Source: Arthrobacter sp. Leaf234 (GTDB taxonomy: Bacteria; Actinomycetota; Actinomycetes; Actinomycetales; Micrococcaceae). Taken from it: DNA of 64,000 bases. Shown here in pieces: positions 2,869 to 58,042 of the stretch (its first letter is position 1; each line of letters starts with the position of its first letter). The position numbers were made by a program, and so were the translations under genes. The stretch covers positions 1,514,732 to 1,578,731 of the forward strand of contig NZ_LMLU01000001.1 of the NCBI RefSeq assembly GCF_001422665.1, read 5' to 3'. Under the pieces are notes generated by a model. It saw only the letters and a program-made list of their open reading frames with translations, was not told the origin of the DNA and ran no database searches.

Positions 2869-2896
2869 AATGTAGCGAACTATTCCTCCTCAGCAA
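2869..2896 (-). promoter_or_regulatory. Predicted leaderless promoter of gluABCD
   Basis: Reading the minus strand, a TTGCTG box (2896-2891), a 16-nt spacer and a TACATT box (2874-2869) lie 6 nt before the gluA ATG. The transcript would start at or next to the start codon. Confidence 0.6.
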
Positions 2897-2967
2897 GACG
2901 GAGCAGCCCGGCGGCGCCGATTGTGATTCAAGAGCAACCAAATCCGCAGCGTGTGCCGCTCGTTGGT

Positions 2968-2973
2968 TAGCCT
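2968..2973 (+). promoter_or_regulatory. Predicted -10 box of the LOG-family gene
   Basis: TAGCCT ends 6 nt before the ATG at 2980, with no clear -35 element and no ribosome binding site. The identical hexamer and spacing occur before the MgtE-N/CBS gene (12816-12811, minus strand). Confidence 0.5.
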
Positions 2974-2979
2974 AGGGAA

Positions 2980-3843
2980 ATGTCTCCTTCCCAGCACCCT
3001 TCGGCGTCCGGTGACGCGTGGCTCCCGGCAGCGGACGACGACGTCGCGGATCCGTCCGTCGTGGCGCCGTGGCTCGCGTCCGGCGAGGCACGTCCCCCCG
3101 GGCCGTCACAGGCCACGCGTCGTCGGGGATCGGTGGAACTGCGCCGCGGACAGGCGACCGGGCCGCAGTCCGACAACACCCTGCTCGACGCGCCGGATTC
3201 CGGTGCCTTCACGCGCACGGATCCGTGGCGGGTCCTGCGGATCCAGAGCGAATTCGTCGAGGGGTTCGGCACCCTGGCCGACCTCGGCCCGGCCATCAGC
3301 GTCTTCGGCTCCGCCCGGACGGCCCGCGACTCCCCCTTCTACGGTATCGGGGAGGAGGTGGGCCGGCGTCTGGTCGAGGCCGGCTACGCGGTCATCACCG
3401 GCGGCGGACCGGGTGCCATGGAAGCGGCGAACAAGGGTGCGTGCGAGGCCGGGGGAGTCTCCGTGGGGCTCGGCATCGAGCTGCCCTTCGAGCAGGGCAT
3501 GAACGAGTGGGTGGACCTCGGCATCAACTTCCGGTACTTCTTCGCCCGCAAGACGATGTTCGTCAAGTACGCCAGCGGCTTCGTCGTCCTGCCCGGCGGC
3601 TTCGGGACGCTCGACGAGCTGTTCGAGGCCATGACGCTGGTCCAGACGGGCAAGGTGACGTCATTCCCGATCGTCCTGATCGGCGTCGACTACTGGCGGC
3701 CGCTGCTCGACTGGATCAGGGGCACCCTGCTCACGGAGGGGACCATCTCGGAGAAGGATCTGTCCCTTCTCCACCTCGTGGACACGGCGGAGGAGGCCGT
3801 CCGGATCGTCGCGGCGTCCGCCGGCCGTTCCGGCACTTCCTGA
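2980..3843 (+). CDS. LOG family protein (TIGR00730 Rossmann fold, cytokinin-riboside phosphoribohydrolase-like)
   Basis: Protein of 287 residues with the lysine decarboxylase-like LOG fold. The nucleotide-binding motif GGGPGAMEAANKGA is at about 141-154 and the family motif PGGFGTLDE at 205-213. Characterised relatives split nucleoside 5'-monophosphates to base plus ribose phosphate; the natural substrate in actinobacteria is unclear. The first 75 residues are a polar, poorly conserved extension, so an internal start is possible, but the ATG fits a leaderless promoter. It heads the LOG-DivIVA-Tag-mannosyltransferase run, an order that resembles the Rv1205-Rv1211 region of M. tuberculosis. Confidence 0.9.
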   Translation: MSPSQHPSASGDAWLPAADDDVADPSVVAPWLASGEARPPGPSQATRRRGSVELRRGQATGPQSDNTLLDAPDSGAFTRTDPWRVLRIQSEFVEGFGTLADLGPAISVFGSARTARDSPFYGIGEEVGRRLVEAGYAVITGGGPGAMEAANKGACEAGGVSVGLGIELPFEQGMNEWVDLGINFRYFFARKTMFVKYASGFVVLPGGFGTLDELFEAMTLVQTGKVTSFPIVLIGVDYWRPLLDWIRGTLLTEGTISEKDLSLLHLVDTAEEAVRIVAASAGRSGTS

Positions 3844-3878
3844 GCTTCACGCGGGCGCGCCTCTGGCACCATTGCCGT

Positions 3879-4352
3879 GTGACTATCTTCCTGGTGATCC
3901 TCGCCATCGTGCTGGTGGGTGCCACGGCGCTCCTCGCGTCCGGTCGGGAGGTGCCGGCGGTCCTGCGGCCCCGGGGCGCCCGGCGGGCGAAGCCGTCCGT
4001 CCTCCGCCGTGCCGCGGACGGGCCCGACGACGCGGCCGGGCGGGACCCGGCGGGCACCCCGACGGGTGACGACGACAGCCGGCTCCTGACGCCGGGCAGC
4101 GACGAGGACCCTTCGGCACGAAGAGACGGACTCGGGTTGGTCGAGCCGGTGGCGAGCCTCCCGCCGGTCCTGCTGCCCGATGATCCGTCGGGGACCGACG
4201 TCGATGCCGTGCGGTTCGGACTGGGCCTGCGCGGGTACCGGATGGACCAGGTGGACGAGGTCCTCGATCGACTCTCGAGCGCGCTCGAGGCCAGGGACGC
4301 CACGATCAGGGCCCTGCGGGCCGAGCTCGCGGGACGGGACGGACGCCGGTGA
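3879..4352 (+). CDS. DivIVA domain-containing protein
   Basis: Small protein of 157 residues read from a GTG at 3879. One membrane helix (IFLVILAIVLVGATALLAS) fills residues 2-20, followed by a charged, Pro/Ala-rich linker and a C-terminal DivIVA-like segment (RFGLGLRGYRMDQVDEVLDRL, about 110-130) with a short coiled coil. DivIVA repeats of this type appear in actinobacterial proteins that sense pole or septum geometry; this membrane-tethered single-copy form has no assigned role that I know. It overlaps the next gene, tag, by GTGA. The start has no strong ribosome binding site. Confidence 0.82.
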   Translation: MTIFLVILAIVLVGATALLASGREVPAVLRPRGARRAKPSVLRRAADGPDDAAGRDPAGTPTGDDDSRLLTPGSDEDPSARRDGLGLVEPVASLPPVLLPDDPSGTDVDAVRFGLGLRGYRMDQVDEVLDRLSSALEARDATIRALRAELAGRDGRR

Positions 4353-6246: not shown

Positions 6247-6410
6247 GTGTGATCCACGCCGCACCCGAATTAGCAGGAGCAGGGCTTGTGCTGAATAATG
6301 AAGGGGATGACGTGCACCGCCGGGCCTCTCACCGGGTCGACGGGACGGAGCACCGTTTACTGTCGCGCTACCGCTGACCGCGGTTGCGCCCTGTTGAAAG
6401 GGACACCCCT

Positions 6411-9345: not shown

Positions 9346-9351
9346 TAGTCT
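9346..9351 (+). promoter_or_regulatory. Predicted -10 box of tatB
   Basis: TAGTCT ends 6 nt before the GTG at 9358. A GTGACG box lies 18 nt further upstream. A leaderless tatB transcript is predicted. Confidence 0.5.
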
Positions 9352-9357
9352 TTTCAG

Positions 9358-9774
9358 GTGTTGGGAATCAACGGCCTCGAACTCGTGGTCCTGGCGATCA
9401 TCGCCGTCGTGGTGCTCGGCCCGGAGCGCCTTCCGGAGTACGCCGCCCAGCTCGCTCGGCTCGTGAAGGGCCTCCGCCGCATGGCCAGCGGAGCACGCGA
9501 GCAGCTCCGGGAGGAAGTGGGACCGGAGCTCGACGAGGTCGACTGGCGCAAGCTCGACCCCCGCCAGTACGACCCGCGGCGCATCATCAAGGAAGCCCTC
9601 CTCGACGACATCGAGGACGTCTTCAAGCCGGTCAGCGAGGGTGCCCCGAGGCCTGTCGCCGCCGCCGCGCCCGCTGCCGCCGCACTCGCTTCTGCCCGAC
9701 CTGCCGTGACGGTTCCCCTCGGGCCGCGTCTCGAAGCAGGACAGGCCGCCCCCTACGACCTCGAGGCGACCTGA
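9358..9774 (+). CDS. tatB: Sec-independent protein translocase subunit TatB
   Basis: Membrane-anchored Tat component of 138 residues. Residues 3-22 form the single N-terminal helix (INGLELVVLAIIAVVVLGPE), ending in the conserved Gly-Pro hinge, and an amphipathic helix follows (LPEYAAQLARLVKGLRRMAS). With TatA and TatC, encoded elsewhere, it recognises twin-arginine signal peptides. The C-terminal third is Ala-rich and disordered. The GTG start is set by the family N-terminus and a TAGTCT box 6 nt away. In mycobacteria an htrA gene lies between rseA and tatB; here it is absent. Confidence 0.93.
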   Translation: MLGINGLELVVLAIIAVVVLGPERLPEYAAQLARLVKGLRRMASGAREQLREEVGPELDEVDWRKLDPRQYDPRRIIKEALLDDIEDVFKPVSEGAPRPVAAAAPAAAALASARPAVTVPLGPRLEAGQAAPYDLEAT

Positions 9775-11528: not shown

Positions 11529-12804
11529 GGCGGCCACCCCGTTTCGGTTCCGGTGCATCGTCCTGCGCCCGCCAGTCGTCCGGGAGCAGGTGGTCGAGGA
11601 CGTCGTCGACCGTCACCGCGCCGACGAGGCGCCCCTCGGTGTTGACGACCGGCAGCGAGTTCAGGTTGTAGGTCGCGAGGATGCGCGACACCTCGCTGAC
11701 GTCCGCCTGATCGCCCACCGCCTCGAGACCGGTGTCGATGATGTTGCCGAGCGGCTCGGGCGGGGGGAAGCGGAGGAGCTGCTGGATGTGCACGACGCCC
11801 AGGTAGCGGCCCGTCGGCGTCTCGAGCGGTGGGCGGCAGACGAAGATCGAGGAGGCGAGGGCAGGTGTGAGTTCCTCCCGGCGCACGTGCGCCAGGGCCT
11901 CCGCCACGGTGGCCTCCGGCGGCAGGATGACCGGGACCGTCGTCATGAGGGATCCCGCGGTGTCCTCCTCGTACTCGAGCAGGCGGCGCACGTCCTCGGC
12001 GTCCTCGGGCTCCATGAGCTGGAGGAGCTCCTCCTTCTGGGCCTCGGGCAGCTCGTTGAGGAGGTCGGCGGCGTCGTCCGGGTCCATCTCCTCGAGGACG
12101 TCGGCCGCCCGCTCCCGGGTGAGCGAGGTCAGGATCTGCACCTGGTCGTCGTCGGGCAGTTCCTGGAGGACGTCGGCGAGGCGATCGTCCTGCAGCTCCC
12201 CGGCGACCTCGATGCGGCGCTTGTCGTTCATCTCGTGCAGGGCGTCGGCGAAGTCGGCCGCTTTCAGGTCGTCGTGCTGGGCGACGAACTGCGTGGCCCC
12301 CTGGGGCTCGTCGGTGGCGCCGTGGAAGGCGTGGAGCCAGTCGATGATGATGCGCTCACCGCCGCGCCGCAGCCCGCGCAGCGGGGAGGTCGAACCACCG
12401 CGTCGGACGAAGAGCTGCGACACGTGCCAGTCACCCGCGCGGTTGCGCTCCATGGCGACGTCCTCGACGACCGCGTTCCCGCTGCCGTCGCGCAGCGTCA
12501 GCCGGCGGTCGAACAGCTCCGCGACCACGAGCATCTCCGCCCCGCGCTGTTCGAACCGGCGCAGGTTGACCAGGCCGGTGCAGATGATCTGCGACGGATC
12601 CATCGAGGTGATCCGGGTCATGGGGACGAAGACGCGTTTCTTCCCGGGCACCTCGACGACGAGGCCGATCACCTGCGGCGGTTTGCCCGGACCGCGGTCG
12701 AGGACCACGGCGTCACGGAGACGCCCGAGGCGGTCACCAAGGGGGTCGAAGACGTCGAGGCCGAGGAGCCGGGCGACGAAGACGCGGGTCGGGTTGGTAG
12801 TCAC
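11521..12804 (-). CDS. MgtE N-terminal and CBS domain protein without the channel domain
   Basis: Cytoplasmic protein of 427 residues. A PRC-barrel-like region (1-130) is followed by an MgtE N-domain with superhelical repeats (RIEVAGELQDDRLADVLQEL, VLEEMDPDDAADLLNELPE, about 190-265) and two CBS domains (about 280-415). True MgtE magnesium channels carry five membrane helices after the CBS pair; this protein ends there and has none. It may be a Mg2+ or nucleotide sensor acting on another protein. GTG start with a TAGCCT box 6 nt upstream. First gene of an operon with DUF1003 and mrp. Confidence 0.88.
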   Translation of the reverse strand: MTTNPTRVFVARLLGLDVFDPLGDRLGRLRDAVVLDRGPGKPPQVIGLVVEVPGKKRVFVPMTRITSMDPSQIICTGLVNLRRFEQRGAEMLVVAELFDRRLTLRDGSGNAVVEDVAMERNRAGDWHVSQLFVRRGGSTSPLRGLRRGGERIIIDWLHAFHGATDEPQGATQFVAQHDDLKAADFADALHEMNDKRRIEVAGELQDDRLADVLQELPDDDQVQILTSLTRERAADVLEEMDPDDAADLLNELPEAQKEELLQLMEPEDAEDVRRLLEYEEDTAGSLMTTVPVILPPEATVAEALAHVRREELTPALASSIFVCRPPLETPTGRYLGVVHIQQLLRFPPPEPLGNIIDTGLEAVGDQADVSEVSRILATYNLNSLPVVNTEGRLVGAVTVDDVLDHLLPDDWRAQDDAPEPKRGGRRG

Positions 12805-12810
12805 TGCCCT

Positions 12811-12816
12811 AGGCTA
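12811..12816 (-). promoter_or_regulatory. Predicted -10 box of the MgtE-N/CBS operon
   Basis: TAGCCT on the minus strand ends 6 nt before the GTG at 12804; no ribosome binding site is seen, which fits a leaderless transcript. Confidence 0.5.
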
Positions 12817-15593: not shown

Positions 15594-15883
15594 CCCGTCA
15601 TCGTCTCACCGGGGCGGCATGGCAGGAAAGTCGGGCCGTTGAGGAGTCCGGGCGCCGAGGTGTGGAGCAGCAGCAGGGACGACAGCGACAGGACACCCCA
15701 CGACGACGATCGCGATCGCCATCGTCCGGGCAGGACAGCGGGCCGCGTCGTCGAGCGGCCGCTGCGGACGATCACCGCAGGAGCGAGGAGGGGCGTGCCG
15801 CGGGGAAGCTCGTCCTGCTCATCGCCGAACACCGCCGGGGAGTCGACAGGAGCTGCCCCCTCCCGGCGCGTAGATTGGATCCG
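15594..15883. other. Intergenic region between pepP and the PHP gene
   Basis: About 290 bp between divergent genes. It holds the PHP promoter at its right end. Short minus-strand open frames (one of about 39 codons starting at an ATG near 15721, with a hydrophobic start) have no ribosome binding site or homology I recognise, so none is called. Confidence 0.4.
15871..15876 (+). promoter_or_regulatory. Predicted -10 box of the PHP gene
   Basis: TAGATT ends 7 nt before the GTG at 15884; no ribosome binding site. The same hexamer stands 6 nt before the photolyase start. Confidence 0.5.
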
Positions 15884-16726
15884 GTGAGAATCGACCTGCA
15901 CACGCACTCCAACGTCTCGGACGGCACCGAGGCCCCCGACGTCCTGATCGCCTCCGCCGCGACCGCAGGCCTCGACGCCGTCGCGCTGACCGACCACGAC
16001 TCGACCGCGGGGTGGAGCAGGGCATTCACCGCGGCCGGCGCACTGGGAATCACCTTCGTCCCGGGTATGGAGGTCTCCTGCCGCACGGACACCGGCATCA
16101 GCGTGCACGTCCTGTCCTACCTGCACGATCCGCTGCACGCCGGGCTGGGCGAGGAGATCGCCAAGTCGCGGCACGCACGCCTCACGCGGGCCCGCCGGAT
16201 GGTCGAGCTCATGTCCGAGGACTACCCGATCACGTGGGAACTGGTGCAGGAGCACGTGACCGAGGGCGCGACCGTGGGACGTCCGCACATTGCCGATGCC
16301 CTGATCGCGCTCGGGATCGTGACGAGCCGGTCCGAGGCCTTCGAGCGCATCCTGACCGCGCGGTCGCCGTACTGGGTCAGCCACTACGCACCGCATCCGG
16401 CAGCCGCCGTCGCGCTCATCCGCGAGGCGGGCGGCGTCCCGGTCTTCGCGCATCCGTCCGCGTTCAACCGCGGGGCCGTGGTGGGCGGCGCCGTCATCGA
16501 CGAGATGATCGACGCCGGACTCCTGGGCCTCGAGGTGGAGCACCGGGACAACCCGGAGGGCGCACGCGTCGAGCTGCGGCGCATCGCCCGCGACAACGGC
16601 CTGCTCGTGACCGGCTCCAGCGACTATCACGGCACCGGCAAGCCGAACCTGCTCGGGGAGAACGTGACGAGCGCGGAGACCCTCGAGGCGATCATCGGTC
16701 TAGCCACCGGGACCCGGGCGGGCTGA
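15884..16726 (+). CDS. PHP domain metal-dependent phosphoesterase (RNase AM-like)
   Basis: Protein of 280 residues. It begins with the PHP signature RIDLHTHSNVSDGTEAP (metal-binding HTH) and continues with LTDHDST, GMEVSC and VFAHPSAF, and ends with GSSDYHG; all are metal-ligand motifs of the polymerase/histidinol phosphatase fold. Relatives such as E. coli YciV (RnaAM) hydrolyse 3',5'-nucleoside bisphosphates and trim 5' ends of RNA, so a phosphatase/exonuclease role is likely. The GTG start puts the HTH at residues 5-7, as in the family. It converges on the DNA methyltransferase. Confidence 0.9.
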   Translation: MRIDLHTHSNVSDGTEAPDVLIASAATAGLDAVALTDHDSTAGWSRAFTAAGALGITFVPGMEVSCRTDTGISVHVLSYLHDPLHAGLGEEIAKSRHARLTRARRMVELMSEDYPITWELVQEHVTEGATVGRPHIADALIALGIVTSRSEAFERILTARSPYWVSHYAPHPAAAVALIREAGGVPVFAHPSAFNRGAVVGGAVIDEMIDAGLLGLEVEHRDNPEGARVELRRIARDNGLLVTGSSDYHGTGKPNLLGENVTSAETLEAIIGLATGTRAG

Positions 16727-19752: not shown

Positions 19753-21237
19753 TCACCGCGCGTCAGTGGGTTTGACCTCGAAGCGGAGGCGCCGGCGGGC
19801 GATGTCCGCCTCGAGGAGCACCACCGTCACGCGCTCTCCCGCCACCAGCTCCCCGTAGCACTTCGCCTCCAGCGGCGGCTCGGTGACCTGGACCGTGCCC
19901 GAGAGCCGCGGTGCCTGCTTCCCGGGTGCGTCCGCCACGGCGGGTGGGGAGGCCTGCAGGACGACGGCGGAGAACGCCTCGCCGATGCGGTTGCTCAGCA
20001 GCGCGGCCTGCACGGCGTCCATTGCTCCGGAGTCGAGGCGTGACGCCGTCTGGTTGGACGACGCCATGAGGGCGTTGAGGTCGGGAAGGACGTCCCGCAC
20101 CCAGGCGGGCACCTCCTCGCCTGCACAGAGCGATGCACAGATCACGAGGACGAAGCGGTCGACGAGCCGGCGCAGGGGAGCGGTGGTGTGCGTGTACGGG
20201 GCGGCGATGGCGGACTGGACGACGGCCTCGGGCACCTCGCCGTCGAAGGCCGTGTAGCCGGCGCCGCGGAAGAGCGAGGCCGCGGCGTGCATGAGGGCCA
20301 GCTGCCGGGGATCGGTCACGTCCAGCGTGCGGAGGAACGCGCCGTAGGGGAGGTCCTCGGGCCACGGGTGGTCGAGCGCCTCCGACTGCCGCCGGAACTT
20401 GCCGAGCGCGCCGTCGTCGGGCTCGGGCATGGTGCGCAGGACGCCGATGCCGCCGTCGATCATCATGCGCGCGGCCGCCATGCCCGTCATGAGCGAGATC
20501 TGGGCGTTCCAGTCCTCGCAGGGGAGCGCCGGCTCGGTGAGGATGCTGTAGCTCTCGCCGTCGTGGATGATCTCCTGGCGGGGGAGGTTGAGGCTGGCTC
20601 CGCCGCGGTCGAGTTCCTGCTGGATGCGGAGCAGGCCGATCTCCTGCAGGAGCTCGAGCTGCGCGTCCGCCCTGCCGGCGTCCACGTCCGCCTGGACCTC
20701 CGCATAGGTGAGCTGGCGGCGGCTGCGCACCACGGCCCGCTCGACCGTCACCGATCGGACGACGGCGGCAGCGTCCAGCCGGAAGTGCCAGACGAAGGCG
20801 GGCCGGTCCTCCTCGGGCAGGAGACTTGCGGCGTCCTCGGAGATGACCTCGGGATGCAGTGAGATGCGGCCGTCCGGAGCGTACATCGTCTGTCCGCGCA
20901 GCCGTGCCTCGGCGTCGATCGCGCCGCCCGGAGCAACGAACAGCGGGACGTCCGCGATGGCGTACCAGACCTCGAACCCGCCCGCGGGCTCCGGGAGGCG
21001 GGCCAGATGGACGGCCTGGTCGAGGTCGGTGGACCCCGGCGGGTCGATGGTCAGGAACGGGAGGTCACGGAGGTCTGCACTCGGCGGGCGGTGCGCGGCA
21101 ACCGCCTCCTCCGCCTCCCGCAGCACGTCGGCCGGGAAGTCCTCCCTGATGTCGAGTTCCTCGCGCAGGAGTCGCAGCGACTCCGTGAGGCGCTGCTGGG
21201 ACTCCCGGTCCCTCAGATCCATATGCTGTGCTGGCAC
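19753..21237 (-). CDS. RNB-domain ribonuclease (RNase II/R family, reduced form)
   Basis: 3'-5' exoribonuclease-like protein of 494 residues. The RNB active-site stretch LTIDPPGSTDLDQAVHL (Mg-binding Asp residues, about 75-91) is intact, and YTHTTAPLRRLVDRF near 345 is the conserved RNB C-terminal motif. Full RNase II has about 640 residues with two cold-shock domains before RNB and an S1 domain after; here only a short N-terminal region of about 70 residues and a small beta-rich end remain. GTG 21237 was chosen because a TACCCT box ends exactly 7 nt before it; ATG 21222 is the alternative. Monocistronic. Confidence 0.88.
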   Translation of the reverse strand: MPAQHMDLRDRESQQRLTESLRLLREELDIREDFPADVLREAEEAVAAHRPPSADLRDLPFLTIDPPGSTDLDQAVHLARLPEPAGGFEVWYAIADVPLFVAPGGAIDAEARLRGQTMYAPDGRISLHPEVISEDAASLLPEEDRPAFVWHFRLDAAAVVRSVTVERAVVRSRRQLTYAEVQADVDAGRADAQLELLQEIGLLRIQQELDRGGASLNLPRQEIIHDGESYSILTEPALPCEDWNAQISLMTGMAAARMMIDGGIGVLRTMPEPDDGALGKFRRQSEALDHPWPEDLPYGAFLRTLDVTDPRQLALMHAAASLFRGAGYTAFDGEVPEAVVQSAIAAPYTHTTAPLRRLVDRFVLVICASLCAGEEVPAWVRDVLPDLNALMASSNQTASRLDSGAMDAVQAALLSNRIGEAFSAVVLQASPPAVADAPGKQAPRLSGTVQVTEPPLEAKCYGELVAGERVTVVLLEADIARRRLRFEVKPTDAR

Positions 21238-21244
21238 AGGGCTC

Positions 21245-21250
21245 AGGGTA
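21245..21250 (-). promoter_or_regulatory. Predicted -10 box of the RNB ribonuclease gene
   Basis: TACCCT on the minus strand ends 7 nt before the GTG at 21237, supporting that start and a leaderless mRNA. Confidence 0.5.
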
Positions 21251-21345
21251 ATGCACGTCACAGACATCCGGTGCGAGCACGGCCCGGTGGCGCTGCGGAC
21301 CCTGTCCGGTGTCGGCCGGGGCGCGCGGGCGTCCGGATCCTGCCG

Positions 21346-21955: not shown

Positions 21956-21961
21956 TACTCT
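21956..21961 (+). promoter_or_regulatory. Predicted -10 box of the ferritin-like gene
   Basis: TACTCT ends 7 nt before the ATG at 21969, with TTGCCG 16 nt further upstream (21934-21939). A complete leaderless promoter by appearance. Confidence 0.55.
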
Positions 21962-21968
21962 TAGCAGA

Positions 21969-22805
21969 ATGAACAACGGCTCCTCCGACAGCACGGCCCT
22001 TTCCGCGACCGATACGGGCCGGACGCAGGACCGGTCTGCCGGAGCATCTGTCGGCGCCGGTGCGCCGACGTCACCGGCTGGACCCGGTGCGCGGCATGCA
22101 TCGGTCCCGGCCGATGCCGGGCAGCTGCCGGCGAGTGCCGCGGACGACGCACTCGGCAACCCCCGCTACGCGAGCTTCGTCACCGACCTCCTCGGTGTCA
22201 TCGCCTACGGTGAGCTGTCCGGTTTCGAGCGACTCTCCTCCGATGCCCGTTTCTCGCCCAGCCTCGCGGACCGGGCCAGCCTCGGGCGGCTCGCAGTCCT
22301 CGAGTTCGAGCACTTCGAGCTGGTCAGCCGGTTCGTGGCCGGTCTCGGCGTCACGATCGAGGACGCCATGGCGCCGTTCCAGGCCTCGATCGATGCCTTC
22401 CACGAGCGCACCCGCCCGGGCGACTGGTACGAGTCCCTGATGAAGGCCTATGTCATCGACGCCTTCTCCGGCGACTTCTACCGGGCGCTCGCCGACAGCC
22501 TGGACCCGAGAACCCGTGACCTGATCGGCGCGATCGACTCGGGCGACGGCGCCGCGCACCTCCAGCGGCGCCTGAAGGAGGCCCTGGCGGACGATCCGCG
22601 GCTCGCCTCCCGGCTCGCGCTCTGGGGGCGGAGGCTCGTGGGAGAGGCCCTCACGCAGGCTCAGCGCGTAGGGATCGAGCGGGAGTACCTGGCGGGACTG
22701 CTCTTCGCCAACGAGGCCGACCACACGCAGCACACCACCGCCCTGTTCTCGCAGCTCACGAGGAACCATTCGCGGCGCATGAGCGCGCTGGGCCTCACGG
22801 CCTGA
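21969..22805 (+). CDS. Ferritin-like fold protein (MiaE-like hydroxylase family)
   Basis: Mostly helical protein of 278 residues after a disordered, Ser/Ala-rich N-terminus of about 65. The helical part carries the carboxylate/His pattern of a di-iron four-helix bundle: AYGELSGFERL, LEFEHFELVSRFV, and a later EREYLAGLLFANEADHTQHTTAL. Actinobacterial copies are usually annotated as ferritin-like or tRNA-(MS2IO6A)-hydroxylase-like; the substrate is unproven. It faces DUF3107 across a strong terminator. The Rv3207-Rv3211 region of mycobacteria has a comparable arrangement from memory. Confidence 0.78.
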   Translation: MNNGSSDSTALSATDTGRTQDRSAGASVGAGAPTSPAGPGARHASVPADAGQLPASAADDALGNPRYASFVTDLLGVIAYGELSGFERLSSDARFSPSLADRASLGRLAVLEFEHFELVSRFVAGLGVTIEDAMAPFQASIDAFHERTRPGDWYESLMKAYVIDAFSGDFYRALADSLDPRTRDLIGAIDSGDGAAHLQRRLKEALADDPRLASRLALWGRRLVGEALTQAQRVGIEREYLAGLLFANEADHTQHTTALFSQLTRNHSRRMSALGLTA

Positions 22806-23940: not shown

Positions 23941-23946
23941 TACCCT
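23941..23946 (+). promoter_or_regulatory. Predicted -10 box of moeB
   Basis: TACCCT ends 5 nt before the ATG at 23952; no ribosome binding site. The spacing is one shorter than in the other cases. Confidence 0.4.
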
Positions 23947-23951
23947 TGGGC

Positions 23952-25283
23952 ATGACCGCTTCACCGACCGCTCCGAACACTTCCGCCGACGTCGGGACAC
24001 CGATCGGGACGCCGACGGGGGCGCCGTCCGGGCCGTCGGTCGGGGCGCGTTCCGGGACGCCGCCCACGACCGTGTCCGGTCTGCCCGCGCTCGTGGAGCC
24101 GGCAGCCGGCCTCACCCCCGAGGAGATCCTGCGCTACTCGCGCCACCTGATCATCCCGGACTTCGGCATGGAGGCGCAGCTGCGGCTGAAGAACGCCCGG
24201 GTGCTGGTGATCGGCGCCGGCGGCCTCGGTTCGCCCGCGCTGCTCTACCTCGCGGCAGCGGGCGTCGGCCTGCTCGGGATCGTGGACGACGACGACGTCG
24301 AGCTCTCCAACCTGCAGCGGCAGGTCATCCACGGCATGGCCGACCTCGGGCGGTCTAAGGCGGAGTCCGCCCGGGCGAGCATCCTGGAGCTCAACCCGCT
24401 CGTCGGCGTGGTGCTGCACGAGGAGCGGCTCGACCGTGGGAACGCGCTGGACCTGTTCTCGCAGTACGACCTGATCGTCGACGGCACCGACAACTTCGCC
24501 ACGCGCTACCTGGTGAACGACGCCGCGGCGATCCTCGGCAAGCCCTACGTCTGGGGGTCGATCCTGCGCTTCGACGGCCAGGTGAGTGTCTTCTGGCAGG
24601 GCCACGGACCGACGTACCGCGACCTCTACCCGGAGGCGCCGCCGCCCGGCTCCGTACCCTCCTGCGCCGAGGGCGGGGTGCTCGGCGTGCTCTGCGCGCA
24701 GATCGGTTCGGTCATGGTCAACGAGGCCATCAAGCTGATCACGGGCGTGGGCACCACCCTCCTCGGGCGGGTCCTGGTGTTCAATGCACTGGACATGAGC
24801 TGGCGCGAGTTGCGCGTGCGCCCCGACCCGTCGGCGGAGCGGATCACGGAGCTGATCGACTACGAGCAGTTCTGCGGGGTGCCCTCGGTCGGTTCCGGTT
24901 CCGGTTCCGGTTCCGGCGACGCCGGCACGGCCGGGACGAGCGAGGACGGGCCGGTTCCCCTGGTCACGGTGGACGAGCTGGCGGAACTCCTGGCCGCACG
25001 GTCCGCCGGCAGCGTGGACTTCGACCTGCTGGACGTCCGGAACCCGGAGGAGTACGCGATCGTCGCCATCGAGGGAGCCCGGCTGGTCCCGCAGCACCTC
25101 ATCCTCGACGGCGAGGACCGGATCGATGCCGCCCGTCCCGTGATCGTCCACTGCAAGTCAGGGGTGCGCTCGGCCGCCGTCGTCCGCTTCCTCCGTGCGC
25201 AGGGCCACCCCGACGCGCGGTCCGTGCAGGGCGGGATCATCGAATGGATCGGCCGGATCGAGCCCGGGAAGCCGGGGTACTGA
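23952..25283 (+). CDS. moeB: Sulfur-carrier adenylyltransferase with rhodanese domain (MoeB/ThiF-like)
   Basis: E1-like protein of 443 residues. The Rossmann motif GAGGLGSPALLYLAAAGVG is at about 88-106, with RQVIHGMADLGRSKAESA and DGTDNFATRYLVNDA following; Cys238 in SCAEGG is the conserved active-site region. A flexible linker of GSGSGSGSG joins a rhodanese domain whose active Cys401 lies in VHCKSGVR. It would adenylate a ubiquitin-like sulfur carrier (MoaD or ThiS type) and supply persulfide sulfur. The first 50 residues are Thr/Pro/Gly-rich. Mycobacterial moeB1 (Rv3206c) has the same domain layout and neighbourhood. Confidence 0.92.
   Translation: MTASPTAPNTSADVGTPIGTPTGAPSGPSVGARSGTPPTTVSGLPALVEPAAGLTPEEILRYSRHLIIPDFGMEAQLRLKNARVLVIGAGGLGSPALLYLAAAGVGLLGIVDDDDVELSNLQRQVIHGMADLGRSKAESARASILELNPLVGVVLHEERLDRGNALDLFSQYDLIVDGTDNFATRYLVNDAAAILGKPYVWGSILRFDGQVSVFWQGHGPTYRDLYPEAPPPGSVPSCAEGGVLGVLCAQIGSVMVNEAIKLITGVGTTLLGRVLVFNALDMSWRELRVRPDPSAERITELIDYEQFCGVPSVGSGSGSGSGDAGTAGTSEDGPVPLVTVDELAELLAARSAGSVDFDLLDVRNPEEYAIVAIEGARLVPQHLILDGEDRIDAARPVIVHCKSGVRSAAVVRFLRAQGHPDARSVQGGIIEWIGRIEPGKPGY
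24891..24916 (+). repeat. Hexamer tandem repeat in the moeB linker
   Basis: Four copies of GGTTCC plus GG encode the Gly-Ser linker between the adenylyltransferase and rhodanese domains. Copy changes would stay in frame and vary linker length. Confidence 0.85.
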
Positions 25284-36037: not shown

Positions 36038-37063
36038 TCAGGCGACGGCGGCGGCCTGCGGTACGGGGACGGCTTCTGTCGCCGGCATCGTGCCGGACGC
36101 GTCGTGGACTTTCCCGACGCCGGATCCGACGCCGGACTCAATGCCGGACTCGATGCCGGACTCGATGCCGGAGCGGGCGATGTCGGGACCGGCCGCGCCG
36201 GCGGTCGCCGTCGGTCCCGCGCCTGCGGGGAGGACCTCGACCGCTCCCGCGGGCAGGACCTCGACCGCTCCCGCGGGTGCGGGTCCGCCGGATGCGCCGG
36301 CAGCGGAGGTCCGTGTCGCGTCGTCCACCCGCTCCGCTCGGAGGTCGACGGAGTGTTCCGGCCGTCGCGTGTCCTGCTCGCGGGGCACGACGGGCCAGGC
36401 CCGTTCGATCACGGTGTCGGGCTCGGTCCGGCGCAGGTACTCCTCGAAACTGGCCGCTTGGCGGTCGGCCCACACGACGAGCGCGCTGTGCAGTTCCCGC
36501 GCCGGACGCTGGAGGAACGGGAACCGGTCGGCGAGGATGTCACCGACCCGCAGGGTCGCCAAAACATCCGCGGCGGATGTGTGGGCGTTGTCGAAGCGCA
36601 CGCCGTAGTGCTCGCACAGTGCCGTCAGCGTCCGCTTGCCCCGCCGGTACCGGTCGGCCTGCTTGTCCATGATGAAGGGATCGATCACGGGCGAGGGCAC
36701 CGGTACGGCGATGCCGTGCCGGCGTCCCTCCTCGGCGAGCACGGTGAAGTCGTAGCGGGCGTTGTAGGCCAGGACCGGGATGTCCGCGGCGAACAGGCGC
36801 GCGAGGACCGCGGCGATGCCGCCGACCACCGCGCCGGCGTCCAGGCCGAGCGAGCGGGCGTGGTCCGTGGTGATGCCGTGGATCGCCGCCGCGCCCGCCG
36901 GGATCTCGATACCCGGATCGGCCAGCCACTCGTGATGCTCCAGTACCGTTCCCGCGCCGTCGACGACGATGATGGTCGCCGTGACGATGCGTGCCGACAG
37001 GGGATCCCGTCCGGTCGTCTCCAGGTCGAAGGCCGCCCTCGGCGCCGTGTGCCAGCTCGTCAT
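36038..37063 (-). CDS. DnaQ-like 3'-5' exonuclease with repetitive low-complexity tail
   Basis: DEDDh-type exonuclease of 341 residues. Exo I AAFDLETTGRDP is at about 10-21, Exo II in VLAYNARYDFTVL and Exo III in HTSAADVLATL; residues up to about 225 form the nuclease domain. Relatives act as proofreading or repair exonucleases. The last 110 residues are Ala/Pro/Gly-rich and contain two families of internal repeats (PAGAVEVL and SGIE units). ATG 37063 was chosen over the in-frame 37138 because TACGGT ends 6 nt before it and the domain starts there. Divergent from the alkyltransferase-like gene. Confidence 0.9.
   Translation of the reverse strand: MTSWHTAPRAAFDLETTGRDPLSARIVTATIIVVDGAGTVLEHHEWLADPGIEIPAGAAAIHGITTDHARSLGLDAGAVVGGIAAVLARLFAADIPVLAYNARYDFTVLAEEGRRHGIAVPVPSPVIDPFIMDKQADRYRRGKRTLTALCEHYGVRFDNAHTSAADVLATLRVGDILADRFPFLQRPARELHSALVVWADRQAASFEEYLRRTEPDTVIERAWPVVPREQDTRRPEHSVDLRAERVDDATRTSAAGASGGPAPAGAVEVLPAGAVEVLPAGAGPTATAGAAGPDIARSGIESGIESGIESGVGSGVGKVHDASGTMPATEAVPVPQAAAVA
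36131..36166 (-). repeat. Three 12-bp tandem repeats in the exonuclease tail
   Basis: Copies GCCGGACTCAAT, GCCGGACTCGAT and GCCGGACTCGAT in plus orientation, encoding SGIE units on the minus strand. One base differs in the first copy. Confidence 0.9.
36242..36277 (-). repeat. 24-bp repeat in the exonuclease tail
   Basis: A 24-bp unit at 36242-36265 is followed by half a copy (36266-36277) and preceded by a degenerate copy from about 36218. It encodes PAGAVEVL repeats. Confidence 0.75.
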
Positions 37064-37069
37064 GGCATC

Positions 37070-37075
37070 ACCGTA
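37070..37075 (-). promoter_or_regulatory. Predicted -10 box of the exonuclease gene
   Basis: TACGGT on the minus strand ends 6 nt before the ATG at 37063. The same hexamer precedes the phosphotransferase gene. Confidence 0.5.
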
Positions 37076-37123
37076 GTCGCGGGGTCCGACCAAATCGGTG
37101 CGCCGCTCCGCTGCCCGCCGGTC

Positions 37124-37129
37124 TAGGGT
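37124..37129 (+). promoter_or_regulatory. Predicted -10 box of the alkyltransferase-like gene
   Basis: TAGGGT ends 7 nt before the ATG at 37137, supporting that start and a leaderless mRNA. Confidence 0.5.
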
Positions 37130-37136
37130 TGAGCCC

Positions 37137-37592
37137 ATGCGACCACGAGCAGACGGCCGCCGGCAGCCGCCGGGCCCGCGAGAGGCCGCCGCGGGGTCTC
37201 GGCCGATGGCGCGGGCCGATCCCGCAGGCTACGCCGGGGCGGTCCTCGACGTGACGGCGATGATCCCTCCGGGGAAGGTGCTCACCTACGGCGACATCGC
37301 CGAACTGCTGGCCTGCGGAGGGCCGCGGCAGGTGGGACGGGCCCTCTCTCTCGCCGCCCGGGACGTGCCGTGGTGGCGCGTGCTGCGGGCCGGCGGTCGT
37401 CCTGCCCAGGGCCTCGCGCGGGAGGCACGGTCCAGGTACGACGACGAGGGCACTGCCCTGGCCGTACCTGCGGACCCCGTGGACGAGGACGACTACAGGG
37501 TGGTCCTCGCGGAGGCGCGCTGGTGGCCGTCCCCCGCCCAGCAGGACGCCCTGGCCCGTCTCGGCGCGTCCGTGAGCCGTCCCGCGCCGTAG
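37137..37592 (+). CDS. Alkyltransferase-like protein (MGMT family, no catalytic cysteine)
   Basis: Protein of 151 residues. The DNA-binding domain of O6-alkylguanine-DNA alkyltransferases is clear: VLDVTAMIPPGKVLTYGDIAELLACGGPRQVGRAL, about 37-70. The active-site motif PCHRV is replaced by PWWRV at 78-82, so the alkyl-accepting Cys is Trp. Such ATL proteins bind O6-alkylguanine, flip it and hand the lesion to nucleotide excision repair. ATG 37137 has a TAGGGT box 7 nt upstream; ATG 37206 would remove a basic 23-residue N-terminus. It stands before the helicase-nuclease genes adnAB, as Rv3204 does in mycobacteria. Confidence 0.88.
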   Translation: MRPRADGRRQPPGPREAAAGSRPMARADPAGYAGAVLDVTAMIPPGKVLTYGDIAELLACGGPRQVGRALSLAARDVPWWRVLRAGGRPAQGLAREARSRYDDEGTALAVPADPVDEDDYRVVLAEARWWPSPAQQDALARLGASVSRPAP

Positions 37593-37649
37593 CGCAGGAC
37601 ACCCGTTGCGGTACGCCTGATTGTCCGTGGGATGTGATGGTCTTGAACC

Positions 37650-44633: not shown

Positions 44634-46160
44634 TCAGCGTCCGTAGGAGACGATCGGCAGCGTCGACGTGGCGACGTCGTCGGGGGAGCCCGCAGAGGTG
44701 TCGCCGCCGCGGAGCAGGGTCACCTTGGACGAACCGCCGGTTGCCGGGCGTTGCCGGGCGGCGACCAGACGGGCGTGCGCCAGCGACGACCCGGACGGAG
44801 TGTCGGCCTCGCGGTGCCCGCGTCCGTGATCCGACCCATGGTCCACGGGGCGGGAGCCGCCCTCCGTCGACGGGTTGGCGGGCCGGGACGCCGCGCTGGG
44901 ATCGTAGGCGTGACTGCCGGTGCGCTCCAAGTCATCGCCGCCGCGACGCCCGGACGGTGCGTCGTCACGGTCCTCTGTCGCGTGGTCGGGCCGAGGAGCG
45001 GTCGGACCGGTGCCCGAACTCTCCTCTGCAGCTGTGTCCGAACCGTCAGCGACGTTCCGACGCACGGTGGAGCCGGCAGCCGGCCGGTGGTCGGACTGCG
45101 GGGTGGAGGACCACGATCCGCCCGTCGAACCCGGAGTATCGTCCCCGGCGGGCTCGTCCTCGGCGTCGTCGCCGTGTTCGTCGCCCCACTCGCGCCGTTC
45201 CTCCTCGGCGCGCTGTGCCCTCTCCGCAGCTTCGTGCTGCTCGCGCTCGATCGACTCCACATCGGCTGCGAGCGTGGCGAGCATGCCTTCGGCTTCGTGG
45301 ATCATCGCGCCATCGTCAAGGGCGACTCCGCGGACCAGCCACTGTGCCAGCGCGAACTCCGCCGCGAGCGCGGCCCTGCGGGAGAGGTGGGGGTCGACGG
45401 CGGAGGTGCGGGCCGCGCCGTATGCGGCATGCACGGCATCGACGAAGGTACTGTCCTCGGCCGCCGCCAGCCAGGCGAAGTCCTCGGCCGGGTCGCCGAT
45501 GCAGAGGTCGGTCCATCCCGTCACGGCGGACACCCGGCCCGCCGAGACGAGCAGGTGGTCCTCGTGGAGATCGCCGTGCATCACGGTCGGGCTGAAGCGC
45601 CAGAGCGCCACGTCCTCCAGCGCGTGTTCCCAGCGGCGCAGCAGGACGGGAGGGATCTTGCCCGTGGTCGCGGCCTGATCCAGTTCGTTCAGCTTGCGCT
45701 GGCGGTACTCGTCGGCCTCGTAGCCCGGCAGGTCGGCGCGCTGCACCATGTCCTTGGGCAGTTCGTGGATCGCGGCGATCACCCGCCCGAGCTCCGCGGC
45801 CATCGGGCGGCCACCGGCGGCCAGGGCTTCCAGCGTGCGTGTGCTGCCGGCCAGGTGCGAGTAGACGAACGTGCTGAGATCGCCCTGCCGGACACTCCCG
45901 GCCATGTGCGGGATGAGGAAGGGAAGTTCAGCCTTGACGGCCGGGGTGAAGGCCCGCAGAGCCTGCAACTCCGTCTCGAGGCGCATGCTTGCCTCGGCAT
46001 GTTTCGGTGACCTCACCCGCCACTGCTTGCCCGCATCGTCGACCAGGAGGGCGGAATCGAAGTCCGCAGCATCATCCGGTGCGCCTGCGACGCCGGTCGG
46101 GGCCAGGCCGGGCACTGCGGCACTGGCGATGGCAGCAAGTTCCATGGGTGTCCGTTTCAC
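44634..46160 (-). CDS. Aminoglycoside/macrolide phosphotransferase-like kinase with long acidic tail
   Basis: Protein kinase-like-fold protein of 508 residues. The catalytic loop VMHGDLHEDHLLV is near 200 and the metal-binding Asp lies in CIGDPAEDFAW; residues 1-310 form the kinase domain. Residues 330-508 are low complexity, rich in Asp/Glu/Ser/Gly. Macrolide 2'-phosphotransferases are relatives, but housekeeping position and conservation in actinobacteria argue for an unknown cellular substrate rather than antibiotic resistance. GTG 46160 was chosen because TACGGT ends 7 nt before it. Divergent from nudC. Confidence 0.85.
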   Translation of the reverse strand: MKRTPMELAAIASAAVPGLAPTGVAGAPDDAADFDSALLVDDAGKQWRVRSPKHAEASMRLETELQALRAFTPAVKAELPFLIPHMAGSVRQGDLSTFVYSHLAGSTRTLEALAAGGRPMAAELGRVIAAIHELPKDMVQRADLPGYEADEYRQRKLNELDQAATTGKIPPVLLRRWEHALEDVALWRFSPTVMHGDLHEDHLLVSAGRVSAVTGWTDLCIGDPAEDFAWLAAAEDSTFVDAVHAAYGAARTSAVDPHLSRRAALAAEFALAQWLVRGVALDDGAMIHEAEGMLATLAADVESIEREQHEAAERAQRAEEERREWGDEHGDDAEDEPAGDDTPGSTGGSWSSTPQSDHRPAAGSTVRRNVADGSDTAAEESSGTGPTAPRPDHATEDRDDAPSGRRGGDDLERTGSHAYDPSAASRPANPSTEGGSRPVDHGSDHGRGHREADTPSGSSLAHARLVAARQRPATGGSSKVTLLRGGDTSAGSPDDVATSTLPIVSYGR

Positions 46161-46167
46161 AAGTTCC

Positions 46168-46173
46168 ACCGTA
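46168..46173 (-). promoter_or_regulatory. Predicted -10 box of the phosphotransferase gene
   Basis: TACGGT on the minus strand ends 7 nt before the GTG at 46160. Confidence 0.5.
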
Positions 46174-46296
46174 GGTCGTCCGTCCTCCGCCCGCTCCGTT
46201 CCGGCGCGGCGAGTCGCCAGATGGACTACTCGTCTTCCCGTTCGGACCACTCCTCCACCCGGCCCCCGCGGAATGTGTTTTGGGAGAGCGAGAACG

Positions 46297-46302
46297 TACC
46301 GT
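46297..46302 (+). promoter_or_regulatory. Predicted -10 box of the nudC operon
   Basis: TACCGT ends 6 nt before the ATG at 46309, without a ribosome binding site; a leaderless transcript is likely. Confidence 0.5.
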
Positions 46303-46308
46303 AGAACC

Positions 46309-47265
46309 ATGACCGAACCCCTCCGGACCCTGGTGTTGCCTCCCCTCGGATCGCTCCCGCTCTCCCGCGCCGATTCCGATCGCGACGGAGTCGCGAGGGT
46401 CGCCGACGGCCTCCTGGATCGCCTCTGGGAGACACCGGAGACCAGGGTCCTGACCCTCGTCCGGGGCAAGGCCCCCGTGACCGCCGACGCGTTGCTGCTG
46501 TTGTCGCCCTCCGACGTGCAGCGGCCCGAGCTGGTCGTGTATCTGGGCCGGATCAACGAGGGTGCGGTGGACGCCGGAGCGCCTGTGGTGCTCGCGGTCC
46601 TGCCCGAGGAGGACCCCGTGATCTCCCCCACGCAGGGGTGGCTGGGGCTGCGGGAGATCGCCGCGTCGCTGGACGCCCGTGACGCGGGGCTCTTCGTCGA
46701 GGCGGCGGCGATCGCCAACTGGCATGCCACGCACAGCCACTGCCCGCGCTGCGGCGAACCCACGGACGTCCGCGACGGCGGATGGGTGCGCCAGTGTCCG
46801 AAGGATTCATCCCAGCACTACCCGCGCACCGATGCCGCGATCATCGTCTCGGTCGTGGACGACGACGACCGCCTCCTCCTCGGCTCCGCTGTCGCCTGGC
46901 CCGAGGACCGGTACTCGACACTGGCCGGGTTCGTCGAGCCCGGGGAGTCGCTCGAGGCCGCGGTGATCCGGGAGGTGGGGGAGGAGTCCGGTATCGAGAT
47001 CCAGTCGCCGGAGTACCTGGGCTCCCAGCCCTGGCCCTTCCCCGCGTCGCTCATGCTCGGCTTCACGGCGCGCGCGGTCACGACCGACGCCGTACCGGAC
47101 CGTGACGAGATGCGGTCGCTCCGCTGGTTCACGAGGGAGCAGCTGTTCAGGGAGGTGCGTGACGGCACCATCGCCGTCGCGGGTGGTGTCTCGATCGCGC
47201 GTGCCCTGATCGAACGCTGGTACGGCGGACCGCTGGACGAGGAGCCGTCGGAGGCGCGTCCCTAG
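46309..47265 (+). CDS. nudC: NAD(+) diphosphatase / NAD-cap hydrolase NudC
   Basis: Nudix enzyme of 318 residues that splits NADH (and in E. coli the NAD cap of RNA). The Nudix box GFVEPGESLEAAVIREVGEESGI is at 207-229 with all catalytic Glu residues, and SQPWPFPASLMLGF at 239-252 is the NADH-pyrophosphatase signature. The zinc ribbon has Cys145, Cys148 and Cys163, but the fourth ligand position holds Asp (QCPKDSS), so the zinc site is incomplete. The stop shares a base with the uvrD2 GTG (TAGTG), coupling the two genes, as with Rv3199c/Rv3198c. Confidence 0.94.
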   Translation: MTEPLRTLVLPPLGSLPLSRADSDRDGVARVADGLLDRLWETPETRVLTLVRGKAPVTADALLLLSPSDVQRPELVVYLGRINEGAVDAGAPVVLAVLPEEDPVISPTQGWLGLREIAASLDARDAGLFVEAAAIANWHATHSHCPRCGEPTDVRDGGWVRQCPKDSSQHYPRTDAAIIVSVVDDDDRLLLGSAVAWPEDRYSTLAGFVEPGESLEAAVIREVGEESGIEIQSPEYLGSQPWPFPASLMLGFTARAVTTDAVPDRDEMRSLRWFTREQLFREVRDGTIAVAGGVSIARALIERWYGGPLDEEPSEARP

Positions 47266-56286: not shown

Positions 56287-56297
56287 TAGTTACACGC

Positions 56298-56371: not shown

Positions 56372-56379
56372 CGAAAAGA

Positions 56380-56411
56380 AAGTCCGGTCCACCTGAGGGT
56401 GGGCCGGACTT
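56380..56411 (+). terminator. Terminator of the tRNA-fMet gene
   Basis: Arms of 14 nt (56380-56393 and 56398-56411) with one G-U pair and a TGAG loop, beginning 8 nt after the tRNA. A short T-containing stretch (TCTTGC) follows. Confidence 0.85.
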
Positions 56412-56550
56412 CTTGCTGTGCAGGGAAGACGTCAGGCGGTAGCGCCCCGACCAGCGCTTGCGTCGGTGCGCTTGGGCCGCCTGCCGCAGTCGCATGGTCG
56501 GCCTCGATCATCGCATCGCCGACGGACCCGGAATTGTGCCGGCAGCGCGC

Positions 56551-56628
56551 TGCGCGTCCTCACCCCGCCCCGTGTGGCTCTGCGCCGCCTGCGCGTCCTC
56601 ACCCCGCCCTGTGTGGCTCTGCGCCGCC
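56551..56628. repeat. Two tandem copies of a 39-bp unit beside the photolyase 3' end
   Basis: Copies at 56551-56589 and 56590-56628 differ at one base (C/T at position 20). The second copy ends 2 bp from the photolyase stop codon. Only the first lies in otherwise unassigned sequence. No coding role is seen. Confidence 0.9.
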
Positions 56629-56629
56629 C

Positions 56630-58030
56630 TCAGGAGTCCGACAGCGCCTTGTACGCGCTGAGAGCGCGTTCCCGGCTCTCCTTGAGGTCCACGACCGGCG
56701 CGGGATATCCCGGCGCGGAGCCCTTCCATGGTTCGTGCACGTTCTCGGCGTCCGCAAGCTCCGGAACGAAACGCACCAGGTAGGCGCCCTTCGGGTCGAA
56801 CTTCTTGCTCTGCAGGACCGGGTTGAAGATGCGGAAGTACGGGCTGGCGTCGGCGCCGGAGCCGGCCACCCACTGCCAACTCGCGGCGTTGCTGGCAGCA
56901 TCGGCGTCGACGAGGCAGTCCCAGAAGAACTTCTCGCCGACCCGCCAGTCGATCATCAGGTTCTTGATGAGGAAGGATGCCGTCGCCATGCGGACACGGT
57001 TGTGCATCCAACCGATCTCCCACAGCTGACGCATTCCGGCATCGATCAGGGGGTACCCCGTACGTCCCTGCTGCCACGCCTCGAGCTCCGCCTGCGTCGA
57101 GCTCTCCCAGGTGAAGGCGTCGAATTCGGGGCGGTAGTTCACCGTGGCGAGCTCGGGATTGAAGTACAGCAGCTGCCAGCTGAATTCCCGCCACCCGAGC
57201 TCCGATCCGAAGACGCGGATGTCCTCGGCCGTTGAGCTGTCCTTGTGGTCCTGGGCGGCGTGCCAGACCTCGAAGGGGCTGATCTCGCCGAAGCGCAGAT
57301 GCGGGGAGAGCATGCTCGTGCCGTGGACGGCCGGGAGGTTCCGGCTGTTCTTGTAGCCACGGGCAGCGCCGTCGAGGAAGTCGTCGAGCCGCTCGTGCGC
57401 GCCGGCCTCACCGGGGGTCCATGTGTCCCGGAGCCCCTGGGCCCAGTCGGGTCCGGTGGGAAGGAGGCCCCACGCGGGGAGCTGGTCGGAGTCCAGGCCG
57501 GGTCCGTCGGGCGATGAGAGCGAATCGGGCGATGCCAGCGGTGTGCGGGGGGTCCTGAAGGTGAGGCAGGCGCGCCAGAAGGGCGTGAAGACCTTGTATG
57601 CCTGGCCCGACCCCGAGGTGACCTCCCACGGTTCGTACATCAGGTTCGCCTGGTAGCTCGTGGCGTCGACGCCATCGTCGGTCAGGGACGTCTTGAGGGC
57701 TGAGTCGACCGTGCGCTCCGCCAGGCCGTACCGCCGGTTCCACACCACCGCGTGGGCGCCACTGTCCTCCACGAGTCGGCGGATCACGTCACCTGCGGCG
57801 CCGCGACGGAGGACCAGCGGGATACCGAGCTGTTCGAGGGAGTCGCCCAGCGCCGAGAGGGAGTGGTGGAGCCACCATCTGGAGGCACCGCCGAGGGGAC
57901 GAATGCCCTCCGACTCCTCGTCGAGCACGTAGCAGGCGACGACGTCGTCCCCGCTGTCCGCGGCCGCGACCAGCGCGGGATTGTCGGAAATACGGAGATC
58001 GTCGCGGAACCACACCAGTGTCACAGCCAT
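56630..58030 (-). CDS. phr: Deoxyribodipyrimidine photolyase (CPD class I type)
   Basis: Light-dependent repair enzyme of 466 residues, FAD in the C-terminal half and an antenna cofactor in the N-terminal alpha/beta domain (MAVTLVWFRDDLRISDNPAL). FAD-site motifs are all present: GTSMLSPHLRFGEIS, ELGWREFSWQLLYF, GRTGYPLIDAGMRQLWEIGWMHNRVRM and WQWVAGSGADASPYFRIFNP. Antenna type cannot be told from the sequence. The ATG is 6 nt after a TAGATT box. The start of the neighbouring PspA gene lies on the same strand upstream, with 114 bp between. Confidence 0.95.
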   Translation of the reverse strand: MAVTLVWFRDDLRISDNPALVAAADSGDDVVACYVLDEESEGIRPLGGASRWWLHHSLSALGDSLEQLGIPLVLRRGAAGDVIRRLVEDSGAHAVVWNRRYGLAERTVDSALKTSLTDDGVDATSYQANLMYEPWEVTSGSGQAYKVFTPFWRACLTFRTPRTPLASPDSLSSPDGPGLDSDQLPAWGLLPTGPDWAQGLRDTWTPGEAGAHERLDDFLDGAARGYKNSRNLPAVHGTSMLSPHLRFGEISPFEVWHAAQDHKDSSTAEDIRVFGSELGWREFSWQLLYFNPELATVNYRPEFDAFTWESSTQAELEAWQQGRTGYPLIDAGMRQLWEIGWMHNRVRMATASFLIKNLMIDWRVGEKFFWDCLVDADAASNAASWQWVAGSGADASPYFRIFNPVLQSKKFDPKGAYLVRFVPELADAENVHEPWKGSAPGYPAPVVDLKESRERALSAYKALSDS

Positions 58031-58036
58031 GGCCTC

Positions 58037-58042
58037 AATCTA
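58037..58042 (-). promoter_or_regulatory. Predicted -10 box of phr
   Basis: TAGATT on the minus strand ends 6 nt before the ATG at 58030; no ribosome binding site apart from a weak GAGG. Confidence 0.5.

Follow-up and report, generated by a model that had tools for sequence, protein, structure and literature searches.

Leaderless messenger RNAs (mRNAs) are common in actinobacteria. In the available text of Zheng et al. 2011 (PMC3160421), a TAnnnT signal about 10 base pairs (bp) before the translation start is described in 86 of 89 actinobacterial genomes, covering about 20% of genes. For Mycobacterium tuberculosis, the accessible portions of Cortes et al. 2013 (PMC3898074) describe a TANNNT -10 element with no conserved -35, and transcription starting at the annotated start codon in 26% of the genes with a primary start. 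The subject here is a 64,000-nucleotide (nt) stretch of Arthrobacter sp. Leaf234 (the window, meaning the whole stretch of DNA analysed), in which a preliminary description had proposed that genes with a TANNNT hexamer (the box) just before their start codons are probably leaderless. Its premise that such mRNAs are frequent in this phylum agrees with what both papers report in these portions. The signal and its position match the TA-led genes of Zheng et al. as described there, with no difference in kind, and 67 of 387 called genes carry it here. The layout is likewise that of the M. tuberculosis leaderless transcriptome in the portions consulted, where the starts were mapped by RNA sequencing, whereas here they are predicted only.

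A second described system may bear on part of these genes. Mycobacterial RecA-NDp / PafBC promoters are presented, in the available parts of PMC5656591, PMC11804915 and PMC8223512, as tTGTCRgtg followed after 8 nt by TannnT (consensus from PMC5656591), and the same sources already extend the motif to other Actinobacteria. A fused PafBC is recorded from Arthrobacter aurescens and Kocuria rhizophila in the text seen of PMC6789036.

Boxes and start codons in the window

All 13 hexamers that had been listed are present at their coordinates and on their strands, and an in-frame start codon lies downstream of each (Table 1). The spacing d, counted from the end of the box to the start codon, is 6 nt in seven genes, 7 nt in five and 5 nt in one, moeB. 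Genes and their starts were called with a codon-usage caller of our own, which kept 409 of 615 candidates over 464 kilobases (kb), with overlaps resolved greedily; those cut at the start by the edge of a stretch or having no called upstream neighbour were dropped, leaving 387. Beyond the 12 listed genes with d of 6 or 7, no called window gene has a box at 6-7 nt. One unlisted gene, starting at 3894 on the forward strand, has TANNNT at 4 nt.

Table 1. Boxes, start codons and -26-like elements in the window, with the occurrence of the box in orthologue loci of the genus
Feature	Coordinates	Strand	Box or element	d (nt)	Start codon	Orthologue loci with box
gluA-type ABC ATPase gene	2860..2874	-	TACATT 2869-2874	6	ATG at 2862	20/20 (own included), 17 at aligned start
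LOG-family gene, divergent from gluA	2968..2982	+	TAGCCT 2968-2973	6	ATG at 2980	20/20, 6 at aligned start
tatB	9346..9360	+	TAGTCT 9346-9351	6	GTG at 9358	9/9 orthologues found, aligned start
MgtE_N/CBS protein gene (mgtE)	12802..12816	-	TAGCCT 12811-12816	6	GTG at 12804	17/17, aligned start
PHP-domain phosphoesterase gene	15871..15886	+	TAGATT 15871-15876	7	GTG at 15884	17/17, aligned start
RNB exoribonuclease gene	21235..21267	-	TACCCT 21245-21250	7	GTG at 21237	18/19
RNB -26-like element	21259-21267	-	7/9 match to tTGTCRgtg			
MiaE_2 (ferritin-like) gene	21956..21971	+	TACTCT 21956-21961	7	ATG at 21969	19/19, 8 at aligned start
moeB (ThiF + rhodanese)	23941..23954	+	TACCCT 23941-23946	5	ATG at 23952	15/15 orthologues, 1 at aligned start
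DnaQ-like exonuclease gene (exo)	37061..37092	-	TACGGT 37070-37075	6	ATG at 37063	20/20, aligned start
exo -26-like element	37084-37092	-	6/9 match to tTGTCRgtg			
Alkyltransferase-like (MGMT DNA-binding domain) gene	37124..37139	+	TAGGGT 37124-37129	7	ATG at 37137	20/20, 2 at aligned start
APH-type phosphotransferase gene	46158..46173	-	TACGGT 46168-46173	7	GTG at 46160	18/18 in genus, aligned start
nudC	46280..46311	+	TACCGT 46297-46302	6	ATG at 46309	18/18 in genus, 16 at aligned start
nudC -26-like element	46280-46288	+	6/9 match to tTGTCRgtg, GTC core absent			
phr photolyase gene	58028..58059	-	TAGATT 58037-58042	6	ATG at 58030	19/20
phr -26-like element	58051-58059	-	7/9 match to tTGTCRgtg			

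Spacing of the box and translation signals

TANNNT is rare in the window, as 109 sites were counted on both strands against an average of 163.8 in shuffled sequence. The preliminary description had predicted that a genome-wide count would peak at 6-7 nt before starts, and this peak is present in 400 kb of the organism's own genome outside the window, to which the following counts by distance refer. Allowing all in-frame starts near the best one and taking the other distances as control, the box precedes 38 genes with d=6 and 17 genes with d=7 (Poisson P of 2e-32 and 6e-10), whereas the 29 remaining distances yield 2.34 genes on average and 6 at most. In all, 55 of the 67 boxed genes lie outside the window, and 45 of the 67 have d=6, the most frequent spacing. 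The excess is thus carried by 6 and 7 nt, while the third distance in the range originally given, 5 nt, shows none, with 0 genes outside the window. Inside called genes, only 9 of 6570 in-frame ATG, GTG or TTG codons have a box at d=6 or 7.

A count made without gene calls leads to the same distances. For ATG codons opening at least 100 codons, 25 boxes lie at 6 nt and 13 at 7 nt, with 0-6 at the other distances from 0 to 30; for GTG the figures are 14 at 6 nt and 9 at 7 nt, against 1-9 elsewhere. The codons CTG, CTC and GTC gave no peak at 6-7 nt in this count.

The boxed starts also differ from the others in their translation signals. With a Shine-Dalgarno sequence scored where at least 5 nt match the complement of the anti-Shine-Dalgarno, 3 of the 67 boxed starts have one, compared with 106 of 323 other called starts. 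The claim that none of the listed genes has a good Shine-Dalgarno is borne out as a depletion, but the exonuclease gene does have a 5-nt match of that kind overlapping its box. DUF3107, pspA, htrA and etfB, which had been named as genes with a strong Shine-Dalgarno and no box at that spacing, do lack the box there, though by eye their Shine-Dalgarno sequences range only from clear (DUF3107) to moderate. All 67 boxed genes start with ATG or GTG; TTG occurs at 13 of the 323 other called starts.

Conservation in the genus and beyond

Nine of the 13 genes were searched across the genus (17 to 19 relatives, own copies counted), and tatB, mgtE, PHP and moeB were taken from the matching stretch of 18 relatives, in which 9, 17, 17 and 15 copies were found. 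A locus was used only if at least 60 bases preceded its expected start; L191 and L212, second gene pieces from the same genome, were left out. Of 232 orthologue loci, which are not independent samples, 230 have a box 5-8 nt ahead of an in-frame start, and in 165 of them this is exactly the aligned start. The residual 65 loci belong mainly to genes with N-termini of differing length (alkyltransferase-like, LOG, MiaE_2 and moeB), for which the script could select any of the in-frame starts; LOG orthologues without a box at the aligned start mostly have it at a start about 20-27 codons further in. As controls, 11 unlisted genes of the same stretch were used, chosen as box-free in the window; two (7275- and 7586+) had no orthologue found, and the remaining nine gave 131 loci, with a box at the aligned start in 0 and at any start in 2.

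Conservation extends to bases that the search did not force. The free NNN positions of the box are 73-82% identical in pairwise comparison, against 56-74% for the six bases before the box and 32-53% for the region 7-35 nt upstream. The orthologues of a given gene can differ in d, with values of 6 and 7 (in exo also 8), and the short spacing of moeB is kept, with d=5 in 10 of 15 orthologues and d=6 in the other 5.

Outside the genus, the phosphotransferase gene has the box in all nine loci that could be aligned. For nudC it is found in 25 of 37 loci and in none of the other 12, a count in which the script may pick in-frame starts as far as 89 codons away from where the start is expected; nine of these loci came from the genus-level search and 28 from a class sample of 60 genomes, 50 of which contain nudC. 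The layout of moeB looks lineage-limited, because in other actinobacteria a box at 5-8 nt was seen in only 5 of 80 named loci (the best 80 of 574), including both Arthrobacter loci, at d=7. The best named MoeB matches are from Arthrobacter, at 68-69%, in a set that may lack records close to the window.

Interpretation and alternatives

With the usual -10 spacing, a TANNNT element ends at about -7. The boxes would then be the -10 elements of housekeeping (sigma-A type) promoters, RNA polymerase would start 6-7 nt downstream, and the predicted transcription start would coincide with the start codon or miss it by about one nucleotide at most. The resulting mRNAs would be leaderless and free of a Shine-Dalgarno, with ribosomes engaging the 5' start codon directly. 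We consider it very probable that the boxes act in this way and that the mRNAs are leaderless, because the peak stands only at 6-7 nt, the box is kept in the orthologues and practically absent from the control loci, its free positions are conserved, the Shine-Dalgarno is depleted and the starts are ATG or GTG exclusively. As the layout is kept across the genus, the mRNAs of the 13 genes very probably begin at the start codon itself. The interpretation first put forward for these genes is supported to this extent, by evidence that comes from sequence comparison.

Several observations weigh against it. The boxed start is the gene caller's top choice in 6 of the 13 listed genes, and another is preferred in 7 (LOG, RNB, moeB, exonuclease, alkyltransferase-like, phosphotransferase and phr), where the boxed start scores 0.3-8.0 log units below the best. 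A -35 consensus sought in the 67 boxed promoters appeared only as a faint T at the expected place. The GTG count at 7 nt is no higher than the top of its background, so that the GTG peak stands at 6 nt only, and moeB uses a spacing, 5 nt, that shows no excess. The two orthologue loci without a box are phr of L201 and RNB of L189, in the latter of which a box is visible, but the alignment began in the interior of the protein. Finally, boxes occur before 31 of 142 genes with a divergent neighbour and 21 of 114 far behind a co-directional gene, but also before 15 of 131 close behind one, some of which may additionally be read in leadered operon mRNAs.

This last group bears on the alternative that the boxes are true -10 elements and yet some genes owe their main protein output to longer, leadered transcripts, produced from a second upstream promoter or by read-through. 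Some genes are known to have two transcription starts, 47 with an additional alternative start being noted in the portion seen of Cortes et al. 2013 (PMC3898074). We regard this alternative as unlikely, since the Shine-Dalgarno depletion would leave a leadered transcript little able to recruit ribosomes, and since 9 of the 13 listed genes have a divergent neighbour, which excludes read-through from the next gene. Less improbable, and still the minority expectation, are ultra-short leaders, in which transcription would begin 1-3 nt before the start codon, chiefly in genes with d=7. The variation of d among orthologues shows that the distance is not fixed to the base, as such leaders would allow, but the commonest spacing, d=6, places the start codon at the usual +1.

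Chance would have TANNNT fall near starts within short gaps richer in A+T, and a low background is indeed seen at all distances. The excess is nevertheless confined to d=6 and 7, the window as a whole contains fewer copies of the motif than expected, and the box is kept genus-wide in all 13 genes, so that an origin by chance deserves hardly any weight. Initiation at or next to the start codon from a -10 box thus remains the preferred explanation. The phenomenon itself is mostly ordinary, a well-known actinobacterial habit that is confirmed here; this genus is a further example, to which the present analysis adds the conservation of the layout, gene by gene, across up to 20 genomes.

A possible link to PafBC-type DNA-damage promoters

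The nonamer 8 nt ahead of the box (the -26 position) resembles tTGTCRgtg in exo, phr, RNB and nudC, with imperfect matches in the window (Table 1). Across orthologues, the mean match out of nine at this position compared with other offsets is 6.40 against 2.43 for exo, 5.89 against 3.27 for nudC, 4.58 against 2.54 for phr and 4.17 against 2.65 for RNB, and the other nine listed genes stay at background (1.90-2.93). A match of at least 7 is reached by a minority of loci, namely 6 of 20 for exo, 4 of 18 for nudC, 7 of 19 for phr and 5 of 18 for RNB, and the conserved form in nudC is without the GTC core. Taken together, 22 of 75 loci of these four genes score at least 7 at the exact offset, against 0 of 155 for the other nine; at other offsets such scores occur in 12 of 2990 cases, all in the alkyltransferase-like gene (ATL), gluA, tatB and moeB.

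The exact motif, TGTCRGTG-N8-TANNNT, has 93 sites in 20 genomes of the genus (12 for the reversed control). It has no site in the window and six in the organism's own genome (reversed control 0), so that for the window genes the case is built on imperfect matches together with some of their orthologues; among the relatives' orthologues of window genes, the exact TGTCRGTG core is found only at phr (4 genomes) and exo (2). Thirty-four of the 93 sites were inspected, 6 own and 28 of relatives. Pfam was run on 17 of these loci; exo (L245) and phr (L254, L256) were named by coordinates, and recA (L257), six radA, one spore photoproduct lyase (L215) and two nei/fpg (L243, L261) were recognised by eye from their N-termini. 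A candidate start lies 6-7 nt after the box in 17 of the 34 loci (dinB of L218 also has one at 0), including two of the six own sites, radA and dinB, both at 6 nt. Twenty-three loci were counted as DNA repair, replication or nucleotide genes, with radA in seven genomes. The other 11 lie outside those functions and include a major facilitator superfamily (MFS) transporter, a PALP enzyme and an ABC ATPase boxed at 6-7 nt, indicating that part of the exact sites are due to chance or serve other functions; one of the 34 has no coding frame downstream. The motif does not imply a leaderless message, as the genes at some exact sites, such as recA (d=53), nei/fpg and spore photoproduct lyase, look leadered.

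The regulator is encoded in the organism's own genome as a fused PafBC of 662 amino acids, with HTH_PafC and two WYL and two WCX stretches. In L297 (C6:86000-96000), the fused pafBC comes after pafA and an FKBP gene, and tatA and, as judged by eye, tatC belong to the same row. In the segment 4041-6390, the called start of pafBC is preceded at 6 nt by a TAGGGT box, and the next small gene (6040-6390) is boxed at 7 nt; tatA stands after it.

At the exact sites, motif and spacing are the same as in mycobacterial PafBC promoters, as far as the available text describes them, and they occur here at radA, recA, a dinB-type polymerase, nei/fpg and other repair genes. The difference lies in that 17 of the 34 loci, which are not independent, would be leaderless, and in the imperfect -26 matches of the window genes (6-7 of 9). 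In exo, phr, RNB and nudC the role of the -35 may pass to a PafBC-type -26 element, which could make these genes inducible by DNA damage. More broadly, it is a tentative proposal, with chances a little short of even, that a good part of the PafBC regulon in this genus (radA, and probably dinB, exo, phr, RNB, nudC and pafBC) is written as leaderless messages, which would join PafBC sigma adaptation and Shine-Dalgarno-free translation in one promoter-start unit of about 40 bp. No report of PafBC-type promoters firing leaderless repair genes was found in the accessible parts of PMC2897130, PMC3968373, PMC10936776, PMC7790235, PMC13388538 and PMC12649562, a weak negative with the subscription literature mostly outside the search.

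Gene neighbourhoods and functions

Three divergent pairs, gluA/LOG, exonuclease/alkyltransferase-like and phosphotransferase/nudC, have a box for each partner. Their starts (2862-2980, 37063-37137 and 46160-46309) lie 73-148 bp apart, and both partners are found in the same loci of relatives. The alkyltransferase-like gene heads two large UvrD/PD-(D/E)XK helicase-nuclease genes (37137-44491), an AddAB-like repair run of which the first gene is boxed, and a UvrD-like helicase gene is also located downstream of nudC. Upstream of nudC, a block at 46271-46296 (about 26 bp before the box, of the type AATGTG-TTTTGGG) is conserved in much of the genus, beyond what a -10 element needs. At LOG (2968-2974), mgtE (12810-12816) and nudC (46297-46303) the box reads TANNNTA and is legible on both strands, so that it might fire bidirectionally; an A directly follows the box in only 6 of the 67 boxed genes.

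The suggestion that many of the listed genes handle DNA or RNA did not translate into a significant enrichment within the window. By function assignments of our own, with 36 of the 38 unlisted window genes scanned, a strict count gives 4 of the 13 listed genes and 8 of the 36 other annotated ones (Fisher p = 0.71), and a loose count 7 of 13 against 8 of 36 (p = 0.08).

Implications

The conserved layout is a useful rule by which start codons can be corrected and promoters located in this genus with nothing but the sequence. It also indicates that individual genes keep their predicted leaderless state throughout the genus, and that nudC and its divergent neighbour keep it partly beyond. The PafBC-type subset is the part worth following, as it may represent a new link to the control of DNA repair; if that link is true, a preference of damaged cells for leaderless repair messages could be put to the test.

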